From: a virus
Length of the DNA stretch: 33,776 nucleotides
Strand: one strand, 5' to 3'
Virus record (IMG/VR): IMGVR_UViG_3300032246_000378
Span: 1 to 33,776 of that record
This document shows positions 12,391 to 22,751 of this stretch, one piece after another. The stretch's first letter is position 1. Every line of letters begins with the position of its first letter. The notes below the pieces were generated by a model. It was not told the origin of the DNA. It searched no databases and worked only from the letters and a program-made list of their open reading frames with translations. The position numbers were made by a program, and so were the translations under genes.

Positions 12391-13127
12391 AAACTATAGT
12401 CTGTATCTCAGACCTGCAAGTACCGTATCATGACGTAGAAGCCGTGAATGCAATCGCAAAGTTCATCAAGTGGTACCAACCCGAAACTGTTGTATCCTGT
12501 GGTGATGAAATGGATATGCAGACTATTAGTAAATGGAGTAAGGGTACCGAGTTAGAGTTTGAGCGTTCTATTGGACGCGACAGAGATACAACTAAAAAAG
12601 TTCTTTATGACTTAACTATTGAACATATGATTAGAAGTAATCATACTGATAGATTATTTAATACAGTTGCAATGAGAGTGCCAGGATTACTTGGCTTACC
12701 TGAACTGCAATTAGAAAACTTCTTAGGACTTGATGAACTAGGAATTAAATACCATAAAGACCCATATGAACTAGCCCCTGGCTGGTTGTTAATGCATGGT
12801 GATGAAGGTAATGTTCAGCCTACGGCTGGTGCTACAGCCCTTGGATTAGCCAAGCGTAGTGGTATGTCAGTAGTCTGTGGGCATACGCACCGTATGGGTT
12901 TGACACATCATACTCAAACATATCGTGGTGGTAAACCTAGAACTGTTTGGGGCATGGAACTAGGAAACTTAATGAACTATGCTAATGCTAAGTATATTAA
13001 GGCTGGCTTATTTACATGGCAACAGGGCTTTGGTATCCTTCATGTTGATGGTAAGACAGTAGTCCCACAGTTAGTTCCTATTGTTAACAAATCATTTACT
13101 GTGGAAGGTAGAACTTTCAAATGGTAG
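12387..13127 (+). CDS. calcineurin-like metallophosphoesterase
   Basis: 246 residues with all five metal-site motifs in order: ISDLQVPYHD (D9, with Gln11 instead of the usual His), CGDEMD (D40), RSNHTDR (N85, H86), MHGDEGN (H137) and CGHTHR (H166, H168). The two-metal phosphoesterase fold is certain. The substrate could be DNA (SbcD-like), cyclic nucleotides or phosphoproteins. The D-x-Q variant of motif I occurs in several phage members. Its position in the replication operon suggests nucleic acid. ATG overlaps the HNH stop. Confidence 0.85.
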   Translation: MKTIVCISDLQVPYHDVEAVNAIAKFIKWYQPETVVSCGDEMDMQTISKWSKGTELEFERSIGRDRDTTKKVLYDLTIEHMIRSNHTDRLFNTVAMRVPGLLGLPELQLENFLGLDELGIKYHKDPYELAPGWLLMHGDEGNVQPTAGATALGLAKRSGMSVVCGHTHRMGLTHHTQTYRGGKPRTVWGMELGNLMNYANAKYIKAGLFTWQQGFGILHVDGKTVVPQLVPIVNKSFTVEGRTFKW

Positions 13128-13849
13128 ATGATAAGCATTTAGCCTGGAATCGTATAGAAAGATGGGACTACATTGTAACTGCCGTTGCATCTGAGTACCA
13201 TAGAAAATATGATATGGTTGAGTTAGAAGATATCAAACAATCATTATATAAGTGGTTCCTTGAGCATCCCAATAAGTTAAATGAGTGGGAAGCAATAGGT
13301 GAGAAAGATGCTAAGAATCTAATCTATCGTTGCCTTCGTAATGATGCATTAGATTATTGTTTGGAGTGGAAAGCCAAGTCTGTTGGCTATGAAACTTCAG
13401 ATGTATTCTTTTATGAATCAGATATTATTGAAGCACTCTTACCTTCAGTTCTACGAGGTGAGTTTGGCGTTTCACATAAGTTAAATCTAGTCGGTCCAAG
13501 TAAGCCACCTGCTCCCGCTGAAGGCGGTAACATGATGGTAATGATGATTGAAATAGATAAAGCGTACCGCAAACTCAGCACCGAGGATAGGACGGTACTG
13601 TTTTATAGGTACGCTGAATCTATGGATTACAACGACATCGCTACCGAGATGAAATTAGGTAGTGAAGACGCTGCTCGCATGCGTCACAATCGTGCTATTA
13701 AGAAATTAATTGTTCGAGTTGGTGGATTCAGACCTTGGTTAGATAAAGACATTGAGAAAGAAGTTAAAGATACCAAGGACGAGGAACCAACCGTAGACCA
13801 TGAGCATGATGGCAGCAATAGGAATGAAGATGGGTTTGAAGATAATTAA
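13121..13849 (+). CDS. sigma-factor-like protein (region 4 HTH)
   Basis: 242 residues. The N-terminal helical part (1-85, ELEDIKQSLYKWFLEHPNKL and RCLRNDALDYC) looks like a divergent sigma region 2. Residues about 148-193 (YRKLSTEDRTVLFYRYAESM, YNDIATEMKLGSEDAARMRH, NRAIKKL) match the sigma region 4 helix-turn-helix. The last 45 residues are acidic. Phage proteins of this type redirect host RNA polymerase or act as activators. Last gene of the rightward early operon, so it could switch on later or accessory promoters such as the palindrome-linked ones, though this is inference. Ends 11 bp before the convergent gene. Confidence 0.65.
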   Translation: MVDDKHLAWNRIERWDYIVTAVASEYHRKYDMVELEDIKQSLYKWFLEHPNKLNEWEAIGEKDAKNLIYRCLRNDALDYCLEWKAKSVGYETSDVFFYESDIIEALLPSVLRGEFGVSHKLNLVGPSKPPAPAEGGNMMVMMIEIDKAYRKLSTEDRTVLFYRYAESMDYNDIATEMKLGSEDAARMRHNRAIKKLIVRVGGFRPWLDKDIEKEVKDTKDEEPTVDHEHDGSNRNEDGFEDN

Positions 13850-13876
13850 GAGTGTCTGAATCAGATTGGATACTCC
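13850..13876. terminator. possible convergent-gene hairpin
   Basis: GAGTGTC and GATACTC (one G-T wobble) can pair across a 12-nt centre in and beside the 11-bp gap between two convergent genes. There is no T-tract, so this is at best a weak terminator that partly lies inside the end of the leftward gene. Confidence 0.25.
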
Positions 13877-14298
13877 TGTTCCATATAATTTTTATATGCT
13901 TCTCCAGCCCTATCAAATTCTTCGTTCTTAACTCTCTTATAATTAATTAACTGTGCTGGTGTAATGAGATGCCCCTTAGATTGATTAGGTGGTTGCTTAT
14001 TTTCTATTGGTCTTCCATAATCTCTAACCACATTTATTAAGTGGTCTATTGGAACTATGATTACATTAGTATCCAATATGAAAGCCCAATGAGTAGCCTT
14101 GCTTACTGCTAGTCCTGATGGTTCCCATTGTCCACTTCCTTGATAGAAACACGATTCCTCTATAAATAGATTACCTGTTTCCATCCAGCGTCTATCTGTT
14201 TTAACTTCTACTGTATCCATGTGCAACAGGTCAGCAATTTTACTTTCACCCGCTTCACCATCACGCAAGTCTAAGTCCCAGTCAGAGTTCTTCGTCAT
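13861..14298 (-). CDS. PD-(D/E)XK nuclease-like protein
   Basis: 145 residues with GAAAGGAAAAG before the ATG. The start GEAGESKIADLLHMDTVEVK has the E (17/18)...D28...E31-x-K33 pattern of small restriction-endonuclease-fold enzymes, followed by LFIEESCFYQG and SGLAVSKATHWAFIL (as in Hjc/VSR-type domains). It is the last gene of the leftward arm. Likely a DNase or branch-cutting enzyme; the substrate is unknown. It overlaps the 39-residue ORF upstream by 17 bp. Confidence 0.65.
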   Translation of the reverse strand: MTKNSDWDLDLRDGEAGESKIADLLHMDTVEVKTDRRWMETGNLFIEESCFYQGSGQWEPSGLAVSKATHWAFILDTNVIIVPIDHLINVVRDYGRPIENKQPPNQSKGHLITPAQLINYKRVKNEEFDRAGEAYKNYMEQEYPI

Positions 14299-14401: not shown

Positions 14402-14578
14402 TTATCCCCCTGTCGAATAGAATCCAGTCCCATTAAACTTAACTGGTGGTGCATGATATACTCGTTTCATTTCTGTATTACAGTTTTTACATATTGGTAT
14501 AACTTCTTCTTCTGTCATACCGCGTTCAATAGTTATCATCTCATTTCCGAATGGGCATAGATAGTCATAACTCGCCAT
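14402..14578 (-). CDS. FmdB-like zinc-ribbon protein
   Basis: 58 residues from ATG 14578, which overlaps the previous stop as TAATG; a longer frame upstream lies inside the neighbouring gene. The order MASYDYLCPFGNEM, PICKNCNTEMKRVYH, VKFNGTGFYSTGG matches FmdB-type putative regulators (Y.Y.C..C, C..C, then GTGFY). The second Cys of the first pair is replaced (CPFG), leaving C8, C30 and C33, so zinc binding may be altered. The family function is poorly known. Confidence 0.7.
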   Translation of the reverse strand: MASYDYLCPFGNEMITIERGMTEEEVIPICKNCNTEMKRVYHAPPVKFNGTGFYSTGG

Positions 14579-14952
14579 TAATACCATCCGTTTTTTTGCC
14601 AATGTTTCCATGCTTGACATGGAGTTCCATAACGGTATGAGATATAATCGAGACCTCTATCAATTTGCTCAGTTGGGTTTGTGTCGGGTGAAAGTCCCAA
14701 TATCTGTGGGATACCACCTGCGTTCTTACCCATAACCTTGATACTGTTATAGGCTTCGTGTCGCCAGTTTGATTCTTTTGTCCACAACTTATCCAAGCAC
14801 AGCCATTGATTATGTTGCCATGCAAGCAAAGATTCTCTTGCGTATGACTTGCTATCATTGACAGTCCATTCTATCTGCGCTGGTAATGTTTCTACTCTTG
14901 ATATCCCAGCAATAGAAAATATTGCTATAAATAGTAGCAACAATCTCTTCAT
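14578..14952 (-). CDS. secreted lysozyme/transglycosylase-like protein
   Basis: 124 residues. Signal peptide or membrane anchor at 1-20 (MKRLLLLFIAIFSIAGISRV). The lysozyme-like core has WLCLDKLWTKESNWRHEAYN with E60 as the probable catalytic acid, AGGIPQILG, and EQIDRGLDYISYRYGTPCQAW; C52 and C112 could form a disulfide outside the membrane. This is the SLT/Rpf-like pattern that cuts glycan strands of peptidoglycan. It is separate from the CHAP lysis cassette and in the accessory arm beside WhiB, so it may act from within on the host wall, in superinfection control or as part of lysis. Confidence 0.75.
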   Translation of the reverse strand: MKRLLLLFIAIFSIAGISRVETLPAQIEWTVNDSKSYARESLLAWQHNQWLCLDKLWTKESNWRHEAYNSIKVMGKNAGGIPQILGLSPDTNPTEQIDRGLDYISYRYGTPCQAWKHWQKNGWY

Positions 14953-14955
14953 ACT

Positions 14956-15309
14956 TCACCGCCTTAGTAGGTTTCTTGTCAGATTGTATAGTTTGTAGGC
15001 TTGATAAGAAGCACTACTCCTAGATTCACTAGGTTTAATCCCAGCCATCTCTAAGCGTTCAGCAGCCATCTTGCCTCCCCATATTCCAAATGGTAGATTA
15101 CCCCATCCAGTTTTACCTGATGGCATATGCTCCATCTTCATACCTTCAGCCAAACACTCTTCCTTGACAGGACACGAAGCACATAATTGTAGCGCATAGT
15201 TAACCTCTGATGTAAGTCTAACTATTTTTTCTTCGGTAATTCTACCCGTTGGTACTTCAGGAAACCACCAATCAGGATTAGCATCACCTGTACAATTACC
15301 TACAATCAT
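14956..15309 (-). CDS. WhiB-like iron-sulfur transcription factor
   Basis: 117 residues with the full WhiB signature: C6, then C43-x2-C46-x5-C52 (LCASCPVKEECLAEG) for a [4Fe-4S] cluster, then the turn GIWGG at 75-79, and a basic C-terminus (YKLYNLTRNLLRR) for DNA contact. WhiB proteins occur only in actinobacteria and their phages, so this fixes the host phylum. Phage WhiB proteins can block or redirect host WhiB/sigma control. The ATG overlaps the upstream stop (ATGA). The transcription unit begins at palindrome 15455-15471. Confidence 0.92.
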   Translation of the reverse strand: MIVGNCTGDANPDWWFPEVPTGRITEEKIVRLTSEVNYALQLCASCPVKEECLAEGMKMEHMPSGKTGWGNLPFGIWGGKMAAERLEMAGIKPSESRSSASYQAYKLYNLTRNLLRR

Positions 15310-15454: not shown

Positions 15455-15471
15455 TGTATTAAATTAATACA
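15455..15471. promoter_or_regulatory. palindrome site 1
   Basis: Perfect 17-bp palindrome TGTATTAAATTAATACA, 14 bp upstream of the small Cys-rich gene that leads the WhiB unit. One of eight identical sites; see findings. Confidence 0.8.
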
Positions 15472-15472
15472 G

Positions 15473-15637
15473 TTAGTTATGTAATCCGTAGTCCCAGCAT
15501 ACCTTTTGTACGGCTAGTCCTAGAGCATTGATAAACAACTGCCTCTCCTCCTCAGACATATTGTAAACATCTGAATACTTTACAGTTGCTTGCCACATTA
15601 TATCCTTTGCCTCTATATCATTAAAGTAATTAAACAT
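15473..15637 (-). CDS. 54-residue hypothetical protein
   Basis: ATG overlaps the preceding stop by one base (TAATG), with AGAAGGACAT upstream. Sequence MFNYFNDIEAKDIMWQATVK and onward is helical, with MSEEERQLFINALG and a C-terminal VQKVCWDYGLHN. It ends next to palindrome site 1. No family recognised. Confidence 0.6.
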   Translation of the reverse strand: MFNYFNDIEAKDIMWQATVKYSDVYNMSEEERQLFINALGLAVQKVCWDYGLHN

Positions 15638-15888
15638 TACTTATGTCCTTCTGTGATAGAATCTAATACATACTCAAACTCAGGACGATACGCCTCTTTG
15701 GGCGCTCTATCATTGTCCCATATCATTGTGTAGCCGTCATTAGAATCCCAATGAAGCCTACCAGTATACTCGCCATTAATTGAGCCAGTATGTAATCTAA
15801 TATGCTTAGTCCAGCCAGTTGACTCTATGCTACTTGATTGAACCATGTACTTATTTAATATCTCCTCACGAGTTACTTCAGCCGTCAA
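15637..15888 (-). CDS. hypothetical protein (TTG start)
   Basis: 83 residues if read from TTG 15888, which has GGGAG eight bases upstream and overlaps the previous gene by 11 bp; the first ATG would be at residue 15 and lacks a ribosome binding site. The C-terminal two thirds (RLHWDSNDGYTMIWDNDRAP, FEYVLDSI) look like a small alpha/beta fold. Function unknown. Confidence 0.6.
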   Translation of the reverse strand: MTAEVTREEILNKYMVQSSSIESTGWTKHIRLHTGSINGEYTGRLHWDSNDGYTMIWDNDRAPKEAYRPEFEYVLDSITEGHK

Positions 15889-16105
15889 GGTTTACTCCCA
15901 TCTCTATTAGTTTATTTTCTATTACCATACTTGTTGTATCATAACTCTCAGCACCCTCACCATCTATGCCTTCACGCCATAGTGCCTTACCTCTATATGA
16001 GATATGAGAACCATCTCCATATAGGCTCATCAGTAATGCGCCAGCAGCATAATCATATACCTCTGCTATCACATCACCACTAGGGTCATGTACTTTTAGT
16101 TTCAT
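15878..16105 (-). CDS. hypothetical protein
   Basis: 75 residues, ATG with GAGAGGATAG eight bases upstream and the 17-bp palindrome 11 bp upstream. It begins MKLKVHDPSGDVIAEVYDYA, an alpha/beta pattern with no catalytic motif. First gene of a three-gene unit (with 15888 and 15637). Confidence 0.6.
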   Translation of the reverse strand: MKLKVHDPSGDVIAEVYDYAAGALLMSLYGDGSHISYRGKALWREGIDGEGAESYDTTSMVIENKLIEMGVNLDG

Positions 16106-16116
16106 GCTATCCTCTC

Positions 16117-16133
16117 TGTATTAATTTAATACA
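16117..16133. promoter_or_regulatory. palindrome site 2
   Basis: TGTATTAATTTAATACA, perfect 17-bp palindrome, 11 bp upstream of the ATG at 16105 and just after the stop of the previous small gene. Confidence 0.8.
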
Positions 16134-16136
16134 CTA

Positions 16137-16271
16137 CTACAGATTTTGTAGTAGCAACCTTGCTCTAGCAATTATAGCGTCATCTCTCTCATCAGTCAAA
16201 TTAGCGATAGAGATTAACTCTATAATTGTTTTTCTGACTTCTTCTTTAGAAGCCGTAGTCATACTGTCCAT
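16137..16271 (-). CDS. 44-residue hypothetical protein
   Basis: ATG with GGGAGGATATA upstream, starting inside the end of the amidotransferase gene (26 bp overlap). Helical peptide (VRKTIIELISIANLTDERDD, IARARLLLQNL). It ends 4 bp before palindrome site 2. Real translation is likely from the ribosome binding site; function unknown. Confidence 0.55.
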   Translation of the reverse strand: MDSMTTASKEEVRKTIIELISIANLTDERDDAIIARARLLLQNL

Positions 16272-17076
16272 TATATCCTCCCGTTAATTGTTTGTGTCGG
16301 GCTGACGCATCCCTCTCAGGAGTCCAGCATAGGCAACCACTATCTTGTACCATATTACATTCGAAACATGTACCACAGTCATAGCAATAGAATTCATTAC
16401 CATCACCTAATTGCGGGATACCGCAACCATAACAGATGTAATCATCTTCGCTACCAGTAATATCATCTAAGTCATAATAGTCATTAGACTTCTTAAACAT
16501 ATTACTCCATTGACTAGGCTTGTAGCCATCATTAGACCACCAGTTGCCCTCATTATCCCAATGACCTAAGTCCTCATTGATAATGTAGCAGTCATACTCA
16601 GCATTAGGGTCTAGGGTAAACACCGCTATCTTGTTGCCACTAGACCACTTCTCTATCATGCCATACAGATTAGGATTATCTAGTGCTGTGATACCACCCA
16701 TAGATGGGAGAATATCCTCAGCAAAGATACGCGTATCACTACGCTTATCAGTAGGCTCAATATGTACATCTAGTATGCCATTGTGTGCTAAGTATGTAAG
16801 GTCGCTACCACCCACCTTAAATGGATGACAATTTTCCTCGTTCTTGACACCATGCGTAGCAAATCTAGCATGATACATAGCATAACTATTTGGGTATTGC
16901 TTGCGTACCTCTAAGAACTCTTTGATAACCTTCTTAGCGGACATACCCTTGCCAGTAATAATCTTATTACCAGCAAGTACAGCATAGCCAAAGCCATGCG
17001 GGTTATTACATGAAGCACACTCTAAATCCTTGCGCTTCGGTGTACTATTCGGGGAACTTACTACCAATAGGCACAT
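16246..17076 (-). CDS. class II glutamine amidotransferase (Ntn) with C-terminal zinc ribbon
   Basis: 276 residues. The nucleophile is C2, directly after the initiator Met (MCLLVVSS), as required for class II glutaminases. Other landmarks: HGFGYAV (27-33), HARFATHG (69-76), CHPF (83-86), AHNGIL (97-102) and D114 in KRSDTRIF. The domain releases ammonia from glutamine. The last 65 residues are a Cys-rich zinc module (C215, C218, C231, C234, C237, C240, C248, C250). The gene starts inside the end of the amidoligase gene (32 bp overlap, GAGAGGAAAG site), so it should feed ammonia or act with that ligase. Palindrome site 3 lies 92 bp upstream. Confidence 0.8.
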   Translation of the reverse strand: MCLLVVSSPNSTPKRKDLECASCNNPHGFGYAVLAGNKIITGKGMSAKKVIKEFLEVRKQYPNSYAMYHARFATHGVKNEENCHPFKVGGSDLTYLAHNGILDVHIEPTDKRSDTRIFAEDILPSMGGITALDNPNLYGMIEKWSSGNKIAVFTLDPNAEYDCYIINEDLGHWDNEGNWWSNDGYKPSQWSNMFKKSNDYYDLDDITGSEDDYICYGCGIPQLGDGNEFYCYDCGTCFECNMVQDSGCLCWTPERDASARHKQLTGGYNGQYDYGF

Positions 17077-18277
17077 ATTCTTTCCTCTCTATTTTAGTTA
17101 TTACATTGGACATGGCATTTAATCTTTGATTAAGAGAAGGATATAACTCTGCTCTCTCTCGGATATACTGTATTAAATTAATACAGTCTAACTTGTGCTC
17201 TCGGACTTCGGGAACACTCATCACTCTTGTAAACTCAACGCTGGCATGCGCTAAGTCAATACATGACTTGATGAATCTAGTATTTAGACTACCTCTAAAG
17301 ATTCGCATCTCTAGTGTTTGCCTATTGTTGGTATTAACCGCAGAATATCTATCATTATCTCTGTGGGTTCTGCCCAATTTATGAGCAAAGGTTTTCTTAC
17401 CAGTATTAGGGTCAAAGACATCATCAAACTTAGCCCAATGACTAGATGACCTACCAGCAAGCACCTCATAGAAATCCTTATTGTTGTATACCAACTGTAA
17501 GAATCTATGCTGATGAGAGCCACCACTAAATCCAGCACGAGAAATATGTATATGAAGTCCGCAGGTTTTTGTACCCCACGCCATCATGTCGTATCTCTCT
17601 TTAAGTATACCTATGGTATTCCATAGAGTACTAGCATCATTCATAAAATAACTATGGGACAATGGATGAGTTACTATCTCAAACCCACACTCAAGTGAGC
17701 CATCAGATTTTAGATAGGCTAATCCTTCTGATTCTAACTTTTGAGCATACTCGGCAGCAACCCTTCTCTGACCATAATCGCCACCTCGCACCTCAGTTTC
17801 TATCTCTATGCCAAAGTATAAGCGTGTCTGCTCATCCTCTGAACTGTGAAATCTAGGGTCAGGTCGGTAAGAATAATCATGTATTAATCTACCATCATTA
17901 TCCTCATCATGATTATACTCGCAACCATTTAGATAGGTACTATCGCAATCCTCACAGTAAGTGGTGTTATTCTCATAACATCTCTCACACATAGTATCAT
18001 CACTATCATCTGTGCCATAGGTATAACCTGTGAAATAGTTATCGCACAAGTCGCACCAATGAGCATCATTACGGGTACAACCTTGACACCATAACTCACC
18101 CTCTACATCACTATACTCATCATCAACAGTTATTACCTGTTCGCAATGAATACACATTATGACGCAACTGTCGCAGACAGGGTCGCCACTAGTAGTGGTA
18201 GTGCCGTCATCATCACTATTTAATTCAGTATTACAAGCGATACAACACTTGGTATCTACTTCATCAATAGTATCCAT
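17045..18277 (-). CDS. amidoligase-family enzyme with N-terminal zinc ribbons
   Basis: 410 residues. Residues 1-120 hold about eight CxxC-type pairs (CCIAC, CDSC, CIHC, CQGC, CDLC, CERC, CEDC), a stack of zinc ribbons. From about 150 comes the glutamine-synthetase-like amidoligase domain: YFGIEIETEV (154-163), YLKSDGSLECGFEIVTHPLS (188-207), CGLHIHISRAGF (239-250) and EMRIFRGSLN (323-332). The family joins a carboxylate to an amine using ATP. Its next-door class II amidotransferase matches the gene pairing described for this family by Iyer and co-workers, who proposed peptide tagging or new metabolites. The target is unknown. Confidence 0.8.
   Translation of the reverse strand: MDTIDEVDTKCCIACNTELNSDDDGTTTTSGDPVCDSCVIMCIHCEQVITVDDEYSDVEGELWCQGCTRNDAHWCDLCDNYFTGYTYGTDDSDDTMCERCYENNTTYCEDCDSTYLNGCEYNHDEDNDGRLIHDYSYRPDPRFHSSEDEQTRLYFGIEIETEVRGGDYGQRRVAAEYAQKLESEGLAYLKSDGSLECGFEIVTHPLSHSYFMNDASTLWNTIGILKERYDMMAWGTKTCGLHIHISRAGFSGGSHQHRFLQLVYNNKDFYEVLAGRSSSHWAKFDDVFDPNTGKKTFAHKLGRTHRDNDRYSAVNTNNRQTLEMRIFRGSLNTRFIKSCIDLAHASVEFTRVMSVPEVREHKLDCINLIQYIRERAELYPSLNQRLNAMSNVITKIERKEYVPIGSKFPE
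17169..17185. promoter_or_regulatory. palindrome site 3 (inside coding sequence)
   Basis: TGTATTAAATTAATACA lies within the 3' end of the amidoligase gene (codons for CINLIQ) and 92 bp upstream of the amidotransferase start. With AC/GT it extends to a 21-bp perfect palindrome. Keeping it inside a gene suggests selection for the DNA site. Confidence 0.75.
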
Positions 18278-18301
18278 AACCTATCCTCTCTCGGTATCTA
18301 A

Positions 18302-18318
18302 TGTATTAATTTAATACA
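18302..18318. promoter_or_regulatory. palindrome site 4
   Basis: TGTATTAATTTAATACA, 24 bp upstream of the amidoligase ATG (18277), with GAGAGAGGATAG between site and start. Confidence 0.8.
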
Positions 18319-18346
18319 CTAGGCTTACTGACTTACATGAACTAAT

Positions 18347-18568
18347 TTACACTAGTTCCTTAGACTTGTCAAGCCTACGCTGAACACTATCAAGGATAAT
18401 GTTTACAACCTTATCCCGTAAAGCGTCAGCGTGTACGGCACGAGCCTCAAACCCATGCCGTGTGTTATGTATAGAGAATTGCCGTAATGATTCCCTGATA
18501 GTTTCTAGTTCATCCCTAGATAACGCAAGGATAACATCATTAGCAAAGTCTACCTCTCTACTTGACAC
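18347..18568 (-). CDS. hypothetical helical protein (GTG start)
   Basis: 73 residues from GTG 18568, overlapping the end of the small membrane-protein gene by 11 bp. Charged helices (DVILALSRDELETIRESLRQ, DKVVNIILDSVQRRLDKSK) suggest a small helical-bundle protein. No family recognised. Confidence 0.6.
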   Translation of the reverse strand: MSSREVDFANDVILALSRDELETIRESLRQFSIHNTRHGFEARAVHADALRDKVVNIILDSVQRRLDKSKELV

Positions 18569-18686
18569 TTAACTCACGCAGTTTGCGAGTTAGTTTAGCG
18601 TTCTTGATAGCGGTAGTAATGACTAGTGTAGAACTTACACTCAGCGCAATTACTATTGCTATCGTATCTGTTATCTCTATGTACAT
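18558..18686 (-). CDS. small single-TM membrane protein
   Basis: 42 residues: MYIEITDTIAIVIALSVSST, then LVITTAI and a basic tail KNAKLTRKLRELSVK. One membrane helix (about 7-27) with the positive tail predicted inside the cell. GAAAGG lies 8 bases before the ATG and palindrome site 5 is 21 bp upstream. Function unknown. Confidence 0.6.
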   Translation of the reverse strand: MYIEITDTIAIVIALSVSSTLVITTAIKNAKLTRKLRELSVK

Positions 18687-18707
18687 GATTACCTTTCGTT
18701 AGTTAAG

Positions 18708-18724
18708 TGTATTAATTTAATACA
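18708..18724. promoter_or_regulatory. palindrome site 5
   Basis: TGTATTAATTTAATACA; with AG/CT it forms a 21-bp perfect palindrome (18706-18726). It lies 21 bp upstream of the membrane-protein ATG at 18686. Confidence 0.8.
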
Positions 18725-18727
18725 CTA

Positions 18728-18844
18728 GTGGAAGTGAGGCTCAGGGGACACTCGCTACAAGTAGCATGGAACGCAGAACCTCACTCGCGCCCACCATAGG
18801 AATCGAACCTATGTATACACGCACCAGCGTGGGCTATCCAGCCG
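18728..18844 (-). ncRNA. structured, tRNA-like element (not a complete tRNA)
   Basis: On the minus strand, after the stop at 18845, come GGCT-GGAT-AGCC, CACGC-TGGT-GCGTG and a hairpin CATAGG-TTCGATT-CCTATG that is an exact tRNA T-arm (T-loop TTCGATT), followed by GTGGGC. Upstream GCCCAC could pair with that GTGGGC as an acceptor-like stem. There is no D-arm and no seven-base anticodon loop, so it is not a normal tRNA. Next is a second structure in which AGTGAGG and CCTCACT pair at long range. Possible readings: tRNA-like RNA, tRNA fossil, or attachment site taken from a host tRNA 3' end. Confidence 0.35.
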
Positions 18845-19009
18845 TTAGTTGGTGTCCGAGTCCAACTCAGCATCCATCAGCAAGTCATCATACTCATCAT
18901 CATACTCGTCAAAGGTACCCATATCAACCTCTAACAATTCTTCGGTGGCGAGTATCTCGGCAACCTCATCCTCACTCATAAAGTCTAATGCTATATCGTC
19001 GCCACTCAT
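18845..19009 (-). CDS. small highly acidic protein
   Basis: 54 residues with ATG overlapping the previous stop (ATGA). Extremely acidic: MSGDDIALDFMSEDEVAEIL and FDEYDDEYDDLLMDAELDSD, with no Lys or Arg. Acidic mini-proteins of phages often mimic DNA or bind host nucleic-acid enzymes, but that is inference from composition. Located directly upstream of the tRNA-like element. Confidence 0.6.
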   Translation of the reverse strand: MSGDDIALDFMSEDEVAEILATEELLEVDMGTFDEYDDEYDDLLMDAELDSDTN

Positions 19010-19158
19010 GATAGCAACCCCATAGCCCTTAGATAATCGTAGTTCGGACGATTACGATTTGCTTGCTCTTGCTTATTGCGCTCTATCTCATCATGAAGTA
19101 ATTGCTGAGTAAACTCGGCAACCTCATCAAAAGAGTTAATCAACTCTGTTGCGTTCAT
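19006..19158 (-). CDS. 50-residue hypothetical protein
   Basis: ATG with GAGAGGATAG 4 bases upstream and palindrome site 6 at 23 bp. Helical sequence MNATELINSFDEVAEFTQQL, then a polar stretch (EIERNKQEQANRNRPNYDYL). It forms a two-gene unit with the acidic protein. No family recognised. Confidence 0.6.
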   Translation of the reverse strand: MNATELINSFDEVAEFTQQLLHDEIERNKQEQANRNRPNYDYLRAMGLLS

Positions 19159-19181
19159 GACCTATCCTCTCGTTCAGCAGG

Positions 19182-19198
19182 TGTATTAATTTAATACA
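19182..19198. promoter_or_regulatory. palindrome site 6
   Basis: TGTATTAATTTAATACA, 23 bp upstream of the ATG at 19158. A second copy (site 7) lies 96 bp further upstream, the only doubled case. Confidence 0.8.
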
Positions 19199-19277
19199 CT
19201 CTGTAATCGGTAATTAACCTCATAAGATAACTATACTCTCATCTCCCAACTAATCAAGTATATTCGGGATTTATTTT

Positions 19278-19294
19278 TGTATTAATTTAATACA
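19278..19294. promoter_or_regulatory. palindrome site 7
   Basis: TGTATTAATTTAATACA, upstream of site 6, with no start codon of its own in the 83-bp interval; probably a second operator for the 19158 unit. Confidence 0.75.
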
Positions 19295-19356
19295 CCTATC
19301 CGCCCATGCGTTTTGCGCCGCCAATATCCGCCCATGTTTGCCCATGCTTCGCGCCG

Positions 19357-19388
19357 CCGCCAAAAGTTTGTGTTGGCGGATTTTTTTT
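19357..19388 (+). terminator. hairpin with T-tract (plus strand)
   Basis: CCGCCAA (19357-19363) pairs with TTGGCGG (19373-19379), loop AAGTTTGTG, followed by ATTTTTTTT. This is a textbook intrinsic terminator for rightward transcription, though no rightward gene precedes it closely; it may block transcription into the divergent region. Confidence 0.6.
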
Positions 19389-19480
19389 GGTCAAAGCGCA
19401 CACTCCTCGCACTTATGGAAAGTTTGTGTTGGGCTTTTGTTTTTCCCCCCGCGTTCGGGCGTGTCGCGGTTGGACAAAAA

Positions 19481-19508
19481 AATAACCCCCGATTTCTCGG
19501 GGGTTATT
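19481..19508. terminator. bidirectional terminator after the 201-residue gene
   Basis: Perfect 12-bp stem AATAACCCCCGA/TCGGGGGTTATT with a TTTC loop. On the minus strand it is followed by a run of T's (TTTTTTTGTCC) 10 bp after the stop at 19519; on the plus strand by TTTTTGG. It should separate the 19519-20124 gene from the next leftward unit. Confidence 0.85.
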
Positions 19509-19518
19509 TTTGGTCGGT

Positions 19519-20124
19519 TTACTTTTTGGCTGTTGCTGAGTTTCTTGCGATTACTTTCAGAATCTCGTTTAAGTTTGCGAGGGTCTGAAGGTCGCTAGTT
19601 TTGATACTTTCCCATGAGCCATTACCCTTTAGCGCTTTTAGGTCGCTAACTGTTTTAGTGAAGATGGTTTCCACGCTTGCTGGCGCTTTTGGCGCTGTTG
19701 CGTTTTTGCGTTCACGGGTTTTTTGTAGCGTTGGGGTTTCGCTGGCTAGTTGGGCATAATCGGCTACCTTCTCCAATGTTGCTTCTACTTCAGCCTTGCC
19801 AACGGCTGTTTGTAGGCGCTGTGCCATTTTGATTAACTCAGCGATGGATACTGTTTTAGCGCCTACTGTTTTGTTCAGAATCTCATCCATAGTAATAAAA
19901 TACTGAACATGGCTTGCGCGGATGGTTGGGGCTGTGCCGTTTGCTTTCTCAATGCTTGCTTGAATATCGCGCACGCTTGAGGTGTTTGCCTTTAGGCGTT
20001 TAACGCATAAGGCAATAAAGCCTTGCTCGCCTTCAAGGTTGATTAACTTGCTGTAAGCATCTACAACCACATTTGAGATAGTTGCGGATGGTGTTGCCTT
20101 TTTTGTTTTTGTTGCTGTTGCCAT
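19519..20124 (-). CDS. basic Ala/Thr-rich protein, possible DNA-binding
   Basis: 201 residues, ATG at 20124 with GAAAGAGAG upstream and palindrome site 8 at 28 bp. Basic ends (MATATKTKKATPS and ARNSATAKK) flank a helical core (GEQGFIALCVKRLKANTSSV, ASHVQYFITMDEILNKTVGA, IAELIKMAQRLQTAVGKAEV). SSVRDIQASIEKANG could be a helix-turn-helix part. No known family. It is a one-gene unit with its own site and terminator, next to the iteron region, which suits a regulator or replication/partition protein. Codon use is richer in G+C than its neighbours. Confidence 0.6.
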   Translation of the reverse strand: MATATKTKKATPSATISNVVVDAYSKLINLEGEQGFIALCVKRLKANTSSVRDIQASIEKANGTAPTIRASHVQYFITMDEILNKTVGAKTVSIAELIKMAQRLQTAVGKAEVEATLEKVADYAQLASETPTLQKTRERKNATAPKAPASVETIFTKTVSDLKALKGNGSWESIKTSDLQTLANLNEILKVIARNSATAKK

Positions 20125-20152
20125 TTTGTTTACTCTCTTTCGGACTTTTTAC

Positions 20153-20169
20153 TGTATTAATTTAATACA
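20153..20169. promoter_or_regulatory. palindrome site 8
   Basis: TGTATTAATTTAATACA, extended by C/G to 19 bp, 28 bp upstream of the ATG at 20124. Confidence 0.8.
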
Positions 20170-20363: not shown

Positions 20364-20683
20364 AGGTTTGTGTTGGGTTAATAAGTCTTTAGTCCTTTAT
20401 CTTTTGTTTTTGTTTTTTGCTTTTATCTTTTAATTCTATAAACGCCTTTAGTCCTTTAATCTTGTTTTGCTTTTTGGTTTTTATTATTACTTATCCCCCA
20501 CTAATATCTCTATTGGATAGTCTAATCACCACTATTAGCCTTATCACTCAGCCACCAATAGCCAACCTGTACAGAGGGAAAGAGTGTGATTATGACCCAG
20601 AGGTTATTAAACGAGGCTCGGTGTTGTACTGTACTATCCCATAAAAAATTACTGTTATATTATAGGGGGGATATATATATTAT

Positions 20684-20790: not shown

Positions 20791-20882
20791 CTCCTCCTAT
20801 AATAGTATTATAATTTATAATTATATTGGGGATAGTCTGCCCGTTTATAGGGACCGTTAAATAAGCGTTATTGGGGGCAACT

Positions 20883-22751
20883 GTGGGTCGTAAGCCAGGG
20901 GTACAAAACATCCCTAAGGATGCTGCCCAACTGCAAGTGTTAGAACTGCTAGCCCAGGGGGCTACCGTAGTAGATGCTATGAAGGCTGTAGGTAGGAATG
21001 ATGTTACCTTCCGTCAATGGTCTATGGCAGATGCCGACTTTAAGAATAAGGCTGACAAGGCTCGCCTATCTGGCAAAGGTATCAAAACAGACCTTGCCAA
21101 TCTTAAGGATATCTCTTTCGAGGATTTCTCAGAGCAATTCCTAGAGACTAAGTTGTTTGACCATCACAAGTCTTGGATTGATTTGATAGAGGGCAAGCCA
21201 CCTAGGTTTATGCATCCTAGCATGACCTACGAGCAAGCAGCAACCAATCGTATTTTAATTAACGTACCACCTGAGCATGCTAAGTCAACTGTGCTTACTA
21301 TCAACTATGTTACCTACCGTCTATCTATAGACCCTAACATAAGAATCATTATTGTATCAAAGACGCAAGGTATGGCTCGTAAGTTCTTGTCTGCGATTAA
21401 GACAAGATTAAGCCATCCTAACTGGACCAAGATGCAAGTATCTTTTGGACCTAACGGTGGCTATAAGGCAGATTCACCAACCTGGTCTGCTGACATGATT
21501 TATCTGGGTGCAGGACGAGACTCAGGTGAGAAGGACCCAACTGTACAAGCATTAGGATTCGGGTCACAAATTTACGGTGCTCGCGCCGACCTGATTATCC
21601 TTGACGATGTGGTGATGAATGCAAACGCCCATGAGTGGGAGAAGCAAATTGAATGGCTTCAAAAAGAAGTTATCACCCGCCTAGGGCGGCACGGAAAACT
21701 GCTTATAGTAGGAACCCGTGTCGCACCTATAGATTTATATAAAATGATTAGAGACCCTGACCAATGGACTGGCGGCAAGTCTCCATTTACATACATGGCA
21801 ATGCCATCAGTTTTAGAATTTGATGAAGACCCAAAGAACTGGAAAACACTCTGGCCTTGGACAGACAGAGCAGAAGGCGATGTAGATGAAGCAAACGCAG
21901 AAGGACTATACCCCAAGTGGGATGGACCTTCGCTTTTTACAAGGCGGTCTGAAGTTGCTCCGAGTGTCTGGGCTATGGTCTACCAACAAGAAGACGTCCA
22001 ATCCGATTCCATATTCTCGCCAACAATTGTCGCAGGATGTGTTAACGGTATGCGAAAGCGTGGACCGCTTAAACGAGACACGGCAGGCCACCCGAAGAAC
22101 ATAGATTCAATTTATACAATTATTGGTTTTGACCCAGCAGTAGCAGGACGTTCCGCTTTCGTAGCGGTCTCTTACAATCGTGCTGATGGTCGTATATATG
22201 TTTTAGACTGTGTTAACATGGTTGACCCTACTCCTCAAAAAGAAAATGCTCTTATCAAGGAATGGGTAGAGAAGTTTAAGCCTCAAGAGTTTCGGGTTGA
22301 AATTAACGCCCACCAGAAATATTATGCTATGGATACAGAACTGCGTGACTATCTTGCATCCTATGGATGTCAACTTAACTCACACTTTACTGGTAAGAAT
22401 AAATGGGATATTGGATTTGGTGTAGCATCTATGGCAAGCCTTTTCGGCTCAGCCAAAGATGGTAGATTCCAAGACAACAACTTAATAGAATTTCCAAGCA
22501 ATCAAGGCTCTGAAGGACTTAAGTCTTTAATACAGCAACTTATCATTTGGAAGCCTGATACTAAGAATCCTACCGACTGTGTAATGGCATTATGGTTTGC
22601 CATTATCCGTTGTAGAGAACTTATGCAGACATCAAGTAGAGTTGGACAGTACCAGACAAACAGATGGGCCACTAGAGCACAGATGGCTGGTAGAGGTTCA
22701 CTTAATTTAGACGAAGCCTTTGCAGAGCAATGGCAAGAAACTTATAGTTAG
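20883..22751 (+). CDS. terL: terminase large subunit
   Basis: 622 residues from GTG 20883 (GGGGG five bases upstream; an in-frame TTG at 20871 has none). Residues about 10-50 (LQVLELLAQGATVVDAMKAV, GRNDVTFRQW) look like a helix-turn-helix of the small-terminase type fused to the front. The ATPase follows: Walker A-like PPEHAKST (129-136), Walker B LIILDD (about 237-242), coupling motif VGTR. The nuclease domain starts IIGFDPAVAG (D417), with VEINAHQ and PTDCVMALWF later. It cuts and pumps phage DNA into the prohead. First gene of the structural operon. Confidence 0.9.
   Translation: MGRKPGVQNIPKDAAQLQVLELLAQGATVVDAMKAVGRNDVTFRQWSMADADFKNKADKARLSGKGIKTDLANLKDISFEDFSEQFLETKLFDHHKSWIDLIEGKPPRFMHPSMTYEQAATNRILINVPPEHAKSTVLTINYVTYRLSIDPNIRIIIVSKTQGMARKFLSAIKTRLSHPNWTKMQVSFGPNGGYKADSPTWSADMIYLGAGRDSGEKDPTVQALGFGSQIYGARADLIILDDVVMNANAHEWEKQIEWLQKEVITRLGRHGKLLIVGTRVAPIDLYKMIRDPDQWTGGKSPFTYMAMPSVLEFDEDPKNWKTLWPWTDRAEGDVDEANAEGLYPKWDGPSLFTRRSEVAPSVWAMVYQQEDVQSDSIFSPTIVAGCVNGMRKRGPLKRDTAGHPKNIDSIYTIIGFDPAVAGRSAFVAVSYNRADGRIYVLDCVNMVDPTPQKENALIKEWVEKFKPQEFRVEINAHQKYYAMDTELRDYLASYGCQLNSHFTGKNKWDIGFGVASMASLFGSAKDGRFQDNNLIEFPSNQGSEGLKSLIQQLIIWKPDTKNPTDCVMALWFAIIRCRELMQTSSRVGQYQTNRWATRAQMAGRGSLNLDEAFAEQWQETYS

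Follow-up and report, generated by a model that had tools for sequence, protein, structure and literature searches.

In cluster A mycobacteriophages (L5, Bxb1, and Trixie), one repressor serves many sites, and the site motif differs between groups of phages and correlates with the distance between their repressors (PMC6550527). These repressors prefer their cognate sites, and the sites, called stoperators, are asymmetric, 13 base pairs (bp) long, present in 20-30 copies per genome, oriented with transcription, and mostly not associated with promoters (PMC6550527). In the non-structural half of their genomes, cluster K mycobacteriophages carry SAS and ESAS repeats immediately before start codons; SAS is an asymmetric 13-mer (GGGATAGGAGCCC) that lies 3-7 bp before start codons, at the ribosome-binding position, and ESAS are imperfect inverted repeats of 17 bp, with a consensus that varies from group to group (PMC3203893). 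A further described case is KorB of RK2, a single DNA-binding protein that silences several promoters through repeated OB operators (PMC11790492; structure 1r71); its N-terminal domain, of the ParB type, binds CTP, and the protein slides along DNA (PMC11790492). Here, we describe a set of 17-bp palindromes in a contig of 33,776 bases from an uncultured, probably actinobacterial phage (IMG/VR record IMGVR_UViG_3300032246_000378; this whole stretch is hereafter the window), compare it to these systems, and propose that the palindromes are the operators of a phage-encoded protein of 201 amino acids (aa). We found no earlier description of these sites in the literature searched (open-access papers only).

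The palindrome, TGTATTAAWTTAATACA, is present in exactly eight exact copies in the window, and allowing three mismatches adds none; a record-wide search returned the same eight. In 100 dinucleotide shuffles of the window, searched with up to three mismatches, the mean number of copies was 0.45 and the maximum 3. All eight copies are confined to a block of leftward genes between a rightward sigma-like gene (13121-13849) and the rightward terminase gene (20871-22751). Counted from the end of the palindrome to the next start codon, they lie 14 nucleotides (nt) before the first gene of the WhiB operon, which encodes 44 aa (15455..15471, an exact match to TGTATTAAATTAATACA), 11 nt before a 75-aa gene (16117..16133), within the coding sequence of an amidoligase-like protein and 92 nt before the start of a class-II glutamine amidotransferase-like (GATase) gene (17169..17185), 24 nt before the amidoligase start (18302..18318), 21 nt before a 42-aa gene (18708..18724), 23 nt before a 50-aa gene as the proximal member of a doublet (19182..19198), 119 nt before the next start as the distal, doubling member (19278..19294, 96 bp from 19182), and 28 nt before the gene for the 201-aa protein (20153..20169). 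An earlier note, made from the letters of the window, had described eight palindromes, none elsewhere in the window, as well as their distances upstream of the starts and the copy inside the amidoligase coding sequence, and our measurements agree with each of these. Two of its details needed correction: the arms are indeed identical in all eight copies, but the centre base is A or T (A in six of the eight when read in the direction of the leftward genes), and flanking bases extend the symmetry in four copies rather than three, to 21 bp at 17169 and 18708 and to 19 bp at 19182 and 20153. Flanks of different sites in the window are alike only at about chance level (28-30%). Together with the shuffles, these differing flanks rule out that the palindromes are chance occurrences or recent duplications.

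To sample relatives, we searched with the 17-mer (about a dozen related contigs), the amidoligase (31 loci), and the sigma-like protein (57); the 17-mer scan also gave some single-site matches in other contigs. Around 40 related viral contigs carry the same leftward genes, and we found that each genome has its own palindrome allele, with five to nine copies at orthologous places in well-covered records. There are at least eight alleles, every one composed of 7-bp arms and a 3-bp centre, with the left arms TGTATTA (A), TGTCATA (B), TGCTGTA (C), TGCCGTA (D), TGTCTGA (E), TGCTTTA (F), TGCTATA (G), and TGTATGA (H), the right arm being the complement; some copies of F and G deviate in their outer bases (CACTTTA, CGCTATA). 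Six pairs of arms are one symmetric step apart (A-H, H-E, D-C, C-F, C-G, and F-G), and B is two steps from D. Alleles were counted against each other in 16 sequence sets, namely 14 records of the family and the cultured Planktophila phages E7 and F5. Each of the 14 records holds its own allele, and the only matches to foreign alleles among them were a decayed A-like amidoligase copy in B and C genomes, one-mismatch overlaps between C and D, and two isolated G-like matches; E7 and F5 contained no palindrome sites. Two records (L068 and L069) have one site each by a strict count and four to five by a looser one. In near-complete relatives of 40 kb, the sites span only a few kilobases. The earlier note had named two observations that would speak against a regulon, copies spread through the rightward genes and related phages with the same genes lacking the sites. 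We saw neither in the window or its relatives, which keep sites at the same places with another palindrome.

Within alleles, the arms are 95-99.8% identical, whereas identity falls to 44-79% in the 20 nt upstream and to 54-82% in the 10 nt downstream. At orthologous sites of allele A, these values are 99.8%, 69%, and 71%, respectively, so that the palindrome is conserved while its spacers drift, a comparison that had been suggested at the outset. Between alleles, the 17-mer is swapped inside conserved flanks. Specifically, the WhiB operon site carries different 17-mers in alleles A and E between flanks that are 90% and 100% identical (ctacggattacataactaac[TGTATTAATTTAATACA]ctaaggaggatagt in the window, ttacggaatacataactaac[TGTCTGAAATTCAGACA]ctaaggaggatagt in contig L050). 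At the site of the 42-aa gene, the 17-mer is swapped between B and D with flanks 95% and 100% identical, and a like swap is seen between C and D. The copy inside the amidoligase gene is, as we read these alignments, a natural control for selection on the 17-mer: in most A genomes, the stretch encodes CINLIQ and the palindrome is perfect (the copy is absent from the two related A contigs L063 and L065), in E genomes it encodes CLKFRQ or CLNFRQ with their own perfect palindrome, and in several B and C genomes it encodes CINLIQ as TGTATTAACCTAATACA or similar, and the palindrome is not intact.

We mapped the operator allele on trees of 14 genes, for which seven alleles require a minimum of six changes. 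Only the tree of the 201-aa gene (19519..20124, minus strand) follows the alleles fully, with exactly six changes; a more careful method again gave six, compared with a mean of 16.8 for shuffled alleles and none of 200 shuffles as low. The 13 other genes need 9-19 changes (83-aa gene, 9; 73-aa gene, 12; sigma-like gene and TerL, 13 each; amidoligase, 15; GATase, 16; WhiB, 18). We thus discarded WhiB, the sigma-like protein, and ten further phage genes as binders of the sites, since their trees need 12-19 changes, and likewise the 83-aa gene; where the earlier note had suggested a single phage regulator without choosing among WhiB, the sigma-like protein, and the 201-residue protein, the trees pick the last. 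Identity between 201-aa proteins averages 14-46% between alleles (49% for the highest pair) and is 75-86% within B, C, and D. The amidoligase and GATase reach 92% and 96% identity between alleles, and since these two genes have sites on both sides and yet ignore the alleles, linkage alone is an insufficient explanation. As all sites change in step with the 201-aa protein, we consider this protein very probably the regulator of the sites and their binder. E7 and F5 have the backbone and sigma genes, with WhiB found in E7, and contain no 201-aa protein; the end region of mycobacteriophage Marvin that was read contains the amidoligase and GATase and neither the sites nor the 201-aa protein. Within the protein, alleles differ from one another in a helix-loop-helix at about residues 51-85, which is alike among proteins of the same allele, behaving as a recognition element would. 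In one allele-B contig (L041), the homologue begins with MTTATKVKAPK, as in allele-A proteins such as that of L059, and continues with B sequence, a switch that likely marks a recombination point for exchange of the regulator.

A search for promoters (TTGA-type -35 box, 16-18 bp spacing, TANNNT; background 0.10 per stretch) gave predictions at all 29 amidoligase sites, where 19-30 nt separate the -10 box from the palindrome that follows it. The distance to the palindrome is mostly 30-33 nt at the proximal sites of the doublet, of which 29 of 35 have a predicted promoter, and 33-37 nt for the 75-aa gene, with predictions at 15 of its 24 sites. Overall, a strong predicted sigma-70 promoter is found 19-37 nt upstream of the sites, or is enclosed by a pair of them. 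In the window, where all predicted boxes are on the minus strand, the amidoligase promoter has TTGACA (18367..18372) and TAAATT (18344..18349) with a spacer of 17, 25 nt before the palindrome; the promoter between the doublet sites has TTGATT (19252..19257) and TATAGT (19230..19235), 31 nt before the proximal palindrome; and the promoter of the 75-aa gene, within a 44-aa gene, has TTGACT (16194..16199) and TATAAT (16171..16176, read from the sequence), 37 nt upstream of its palindrome, a layout kept at the 15 orthologous sites mentioned above. From the end of the distal doublet site to the -35 box there are 14-20 nt, so that the pair brackets the promoter, with a spacing of 89-96 bp in alleles A-F. 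A TTGACA follows the site ahead of the 201-aa gene in B genomes.

We have good confidence that the 201-aa protein is an autoregulated, phage-encoded DNA-binding repressor of the palindromes, with at least eight specificities that changed together with the operators. The sequences show directly the sites and their places, the swaps of alleles, the restriction of genomes to sites of their own allele, and the congruence with the 201-aa gene, whereas DNA binding, dimerization, repression, looping, and timing are inferred. We propose that the protein, most likely as a dimer, binds the 17-bp palindromes and would thereby repress every unit of transcription in the leftward block simultaneously. In most of these units, the operator follows closely on a sigma-70 promoter, after the predicted start site and ahead of the Shine-Dalgarno sequence (SD), where a bound protein would sterically block promoter escape or early elongation. 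The two operators that bracket the promoter of the 50-aa gene, 89-96 bp apart, would suit a repression loop, and the site ahead of the 201-aa gene itself suggests autoregulation. The family would have diversified into at least eight specificities, with one or two substitutions leading from arm to arm, and within a genome every operator would have changed together with the protein.

Several observations weigh against this proposal. The first is a strand bias of the centre base, which on the sense strand is A in 37 of 41 groups of site class and allele (T in four), although groups within one allele may be non-independent; such a bias is not expected of a plain symmetric operator. By analogy with stoperators, which are also oriented with transcription, this polarity could reflect a directional block to elongation. 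It would also suit palindromes that act as RNA hairpins (7-bp stem, 3-nt loop) in 5' leaders near the SD, with the 201-aa protein as a translational repressor, and most sites do lie between the predicted start site and the SD; the weak excess of sense-strand G-T over A-C mismatches in the arms (23 versus 13) goes in the same direction. However, the distal doublet site lies ahead of its -35 box and the autoregulatory site of B-type genomes ahead of a TTGACA, and these sites are therefore not transcribed from those promoters; the near-complete 17-bp symmetry fits a protein dimer on DNA. We regard RNA hairpins as an unlikely explanation.

The second observation is that the tree of the 50-aa gene (19006..19158, minus strand), which lies behind the doublet, needs six changes with a minimum of five and so nearly tracks the alleles. 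Its product, under doublet control and adjoining the 201-aa gene, might be the regulator, or might act together with the 201-aa protein as a co-repressor or antirepressor. However, by eye its B, C, and D versions are nearly alike though their operators differ, where the corresponding 201-aa proteins average 37-46% identity, and it has no recognizable DNA-binding motif; a regulatory role for this protein seems improbable to us. The third is contig L116 (L116:16046-16762, minus strand), where D-type sites occur with a far-diverged 201-aa homologue outside the D group, a misfit for which convergence of specificity or wrong placement are possible causes.

The fourth concerns the 201-aa family itself, for which we found no convincing match in Pfam, PHROGs, PADLOC, or the sequences of the PDB, and no match by tblastn in 50,697 phage records. 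AlphaFold2 predicted an all-helical structure from each of two alignments (mean pLDDT 76 and 82), and Foldseek searches with these models gave nothing significant against the PDB and BFVD. A second look at structural matches returned RFC, Raf1, KorB, and ParB domains, all weak; the DNA-binding domains of KorB and ParB recur (1r71, Z 4.0 and 4.3; 6s6h, Z 3.8 and 3.3), below the stated noise level, and we treat this likeness, whose weakness counts against the proposal, as a lead only. The KorB domain PF08535 is absent from the record, and no KorB or ParB profile was among the Pfam matches of 17 family members (E up to 1). The same weak likeness, together with the presence of several palindromes within about 5 kb, would suit a centromere-like (parS-like) array for partition or DNA organization, but ten records, which may be incomplete, contained no ParA-type ATPase (AAA_31), and the sites stand at start codons and promoters with near-fixed offsets, which leaves this very improbable. 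We give just as little weight to the idea that the sites are phage or host promoters through a sigma-70-type -10 box in the palindrome (TATAAT in B, C, D, F, and G). In its favour, A, A, and T are retained at palindrome positions 7, 9, and 11, read in the sense direction, across most alleles and positions, but separate upstream TTGACA-N17-TANNNT promoters exist, alleles A and E match a -10 box poorly, and the tree of the phage sigma-like protein, with its 13 changes, does not follow the alleles.

The last concerns lifestyle. No integrase, serine recombinase/resolvase, or ParA-type ATPase (AAA_31) was found in the ten records, which are classed as linear and may be fragments, so a role in lysogeny is unsupported; nor did these records contain an HTH_3 repressor domain (PF01381), that is, a lambda-type match. 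As the records are possibly fragments, the absence of lysogeny genes is not proof. A TerL scan of genome contigs for a host or prophage found no relative. The TerL of the window is 74% identical to that of E7 and F5 (PMC10202952), from which we take the host to be probably a freshwater actinobacterium.

Operators of the phage P1 repressor C1 are asymmetric, unlike the palindromes described here. The two systems have in common a scattered placement of the operators. They also share 17-bp operators at a promoter in a phage genome (annotated for P1 in NC_005856). The likeness to cluster A lies in one phage regulator with many sites and a motif that covaries with the regulator, as seen in the minimum number of changes on the 201-aa tree. 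In contrast to cluster A, the sites here are 17-bp palindromes, eight in the window, restricted to one gene block and tied to promoters and starts; the 201-aa protein has no convincing Pfam or PHROG match, and we found no homology to the L5-type repressor and no integrase or ParA. The layout had been said to recall mycobacteriophage stoperators, which applies to the working principle and not to the sequence or the protein family. The layout also resembles that of cluster K ESAS. Compared with cluster K SAS, the sequence is different, the palindrome is compact, lies upstream of the SD, and ends 11-28 nt before most starts, and there is a candidate binder, where none is known for SAS. KorB resembles our system in the layout of its operators, and models of the 201-aa protein weakly recall its DNA-binding domain, but they show no CTP-binding N-terminal domain and there is no sequence match. 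Because cluster A, KorB, and cluster K each have tested defining features that we did not find here, we provisionally set the system apart from all three. On the features tested, the best reading of these sequences is a global repressor-operator set with multiple alleles that would work like cluster A stoperators or KorB and is probably distinct from both.

Diversification of operator specificity is usually explained by superinfection immunity, and here it is found in phages without recognizable lysogeny genes. Since the phages seem to lack such genes, we speculate, tentatively, that the 201-aa proteins form an undescribed family of phage DNA-binding repressors with many operator specificities that was diversified by competition or exclusion among co-infecting phages rather than by prophage immunity. 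From sequence alone, our main reading assigns a putative function and precise DNA targets to a protein family that has no detected match in the libraries searched. With at least eight pairs of protein and operator occurring naturally, their arms one or two substitutions apart, the joint change in specificity of a regulator and all its sites becomes directly testable.

The leftward block under the sites encodes, besides small proteins (Pfam/PHROG annotation), several candidate regulon members, all on the minus strand: the amidoligase-like protein (17045..18277; Pfam PF12224), the GATase (16246..17076; weak Pfam GATase_4/6, phrog_25883), and the WhiB-like protein (14956..15309; Pfam PF02467). 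Downstream in the WhiB operon follow a transglycosylase-like protein (14578..14952, minus strand; phrog_15428, phrog_12661) and, at its end, a leftward phrog_13596 protein that is kept in nearly all relatives (13861-14298). The rightward genes encode virion, packaging, and replication proteins and the sigma-like factor. A terminator-like hairpin (AAATAACCCCCGA-TTTC-TCGGGGGTTATTT; 19475..19512) lies directly 3' of the 201-aa gene.

Upstream of the operator of the 42-aa gene, we observed a tRNA-like minihelix (window 18789-18834, minus strand) that recurs at about 35-40 related loci. It consists of a 6-bp acceptor-like stem (GCCCAC/GTGGGC), a linker of 12-17 nt, a 6-bp T-stem, and a T-loop (TTCGATT), and has neither D arm nor anticodon arm. 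In a set of 12 distinct sequences, pairing is kept in 99.3% of pair cells, and both sides have changed in 9 of the 12 pairs, compared with one or two for slid partners. The element is present in nearly all family contigs, with 0.07 expected per shuffled window, and may be a substrate or decoy for a tRNA-processing enzyme. ARAGORN called no tRNA at the minihelix of the window. In an allele-H contig, it called a tRNA-Arg at the corresponding place (L123:16372-16456, minus strand), in a sequence that also fits the minihelix (GCTTGC/GCAAGC); one possibility is that this call is spurious, another that the minihelix is a reduced tRNA. Finally, between or beside the regulator gene and the doublet, we observed GC-rich repeats (GCGCATGGGCGG-like) and three copies of GTTTGTGTTGG near 19367, 19422, and 20365 (window 19295-19430 and 20365-20375), and relatives carry CAACACAAACT at similar places.

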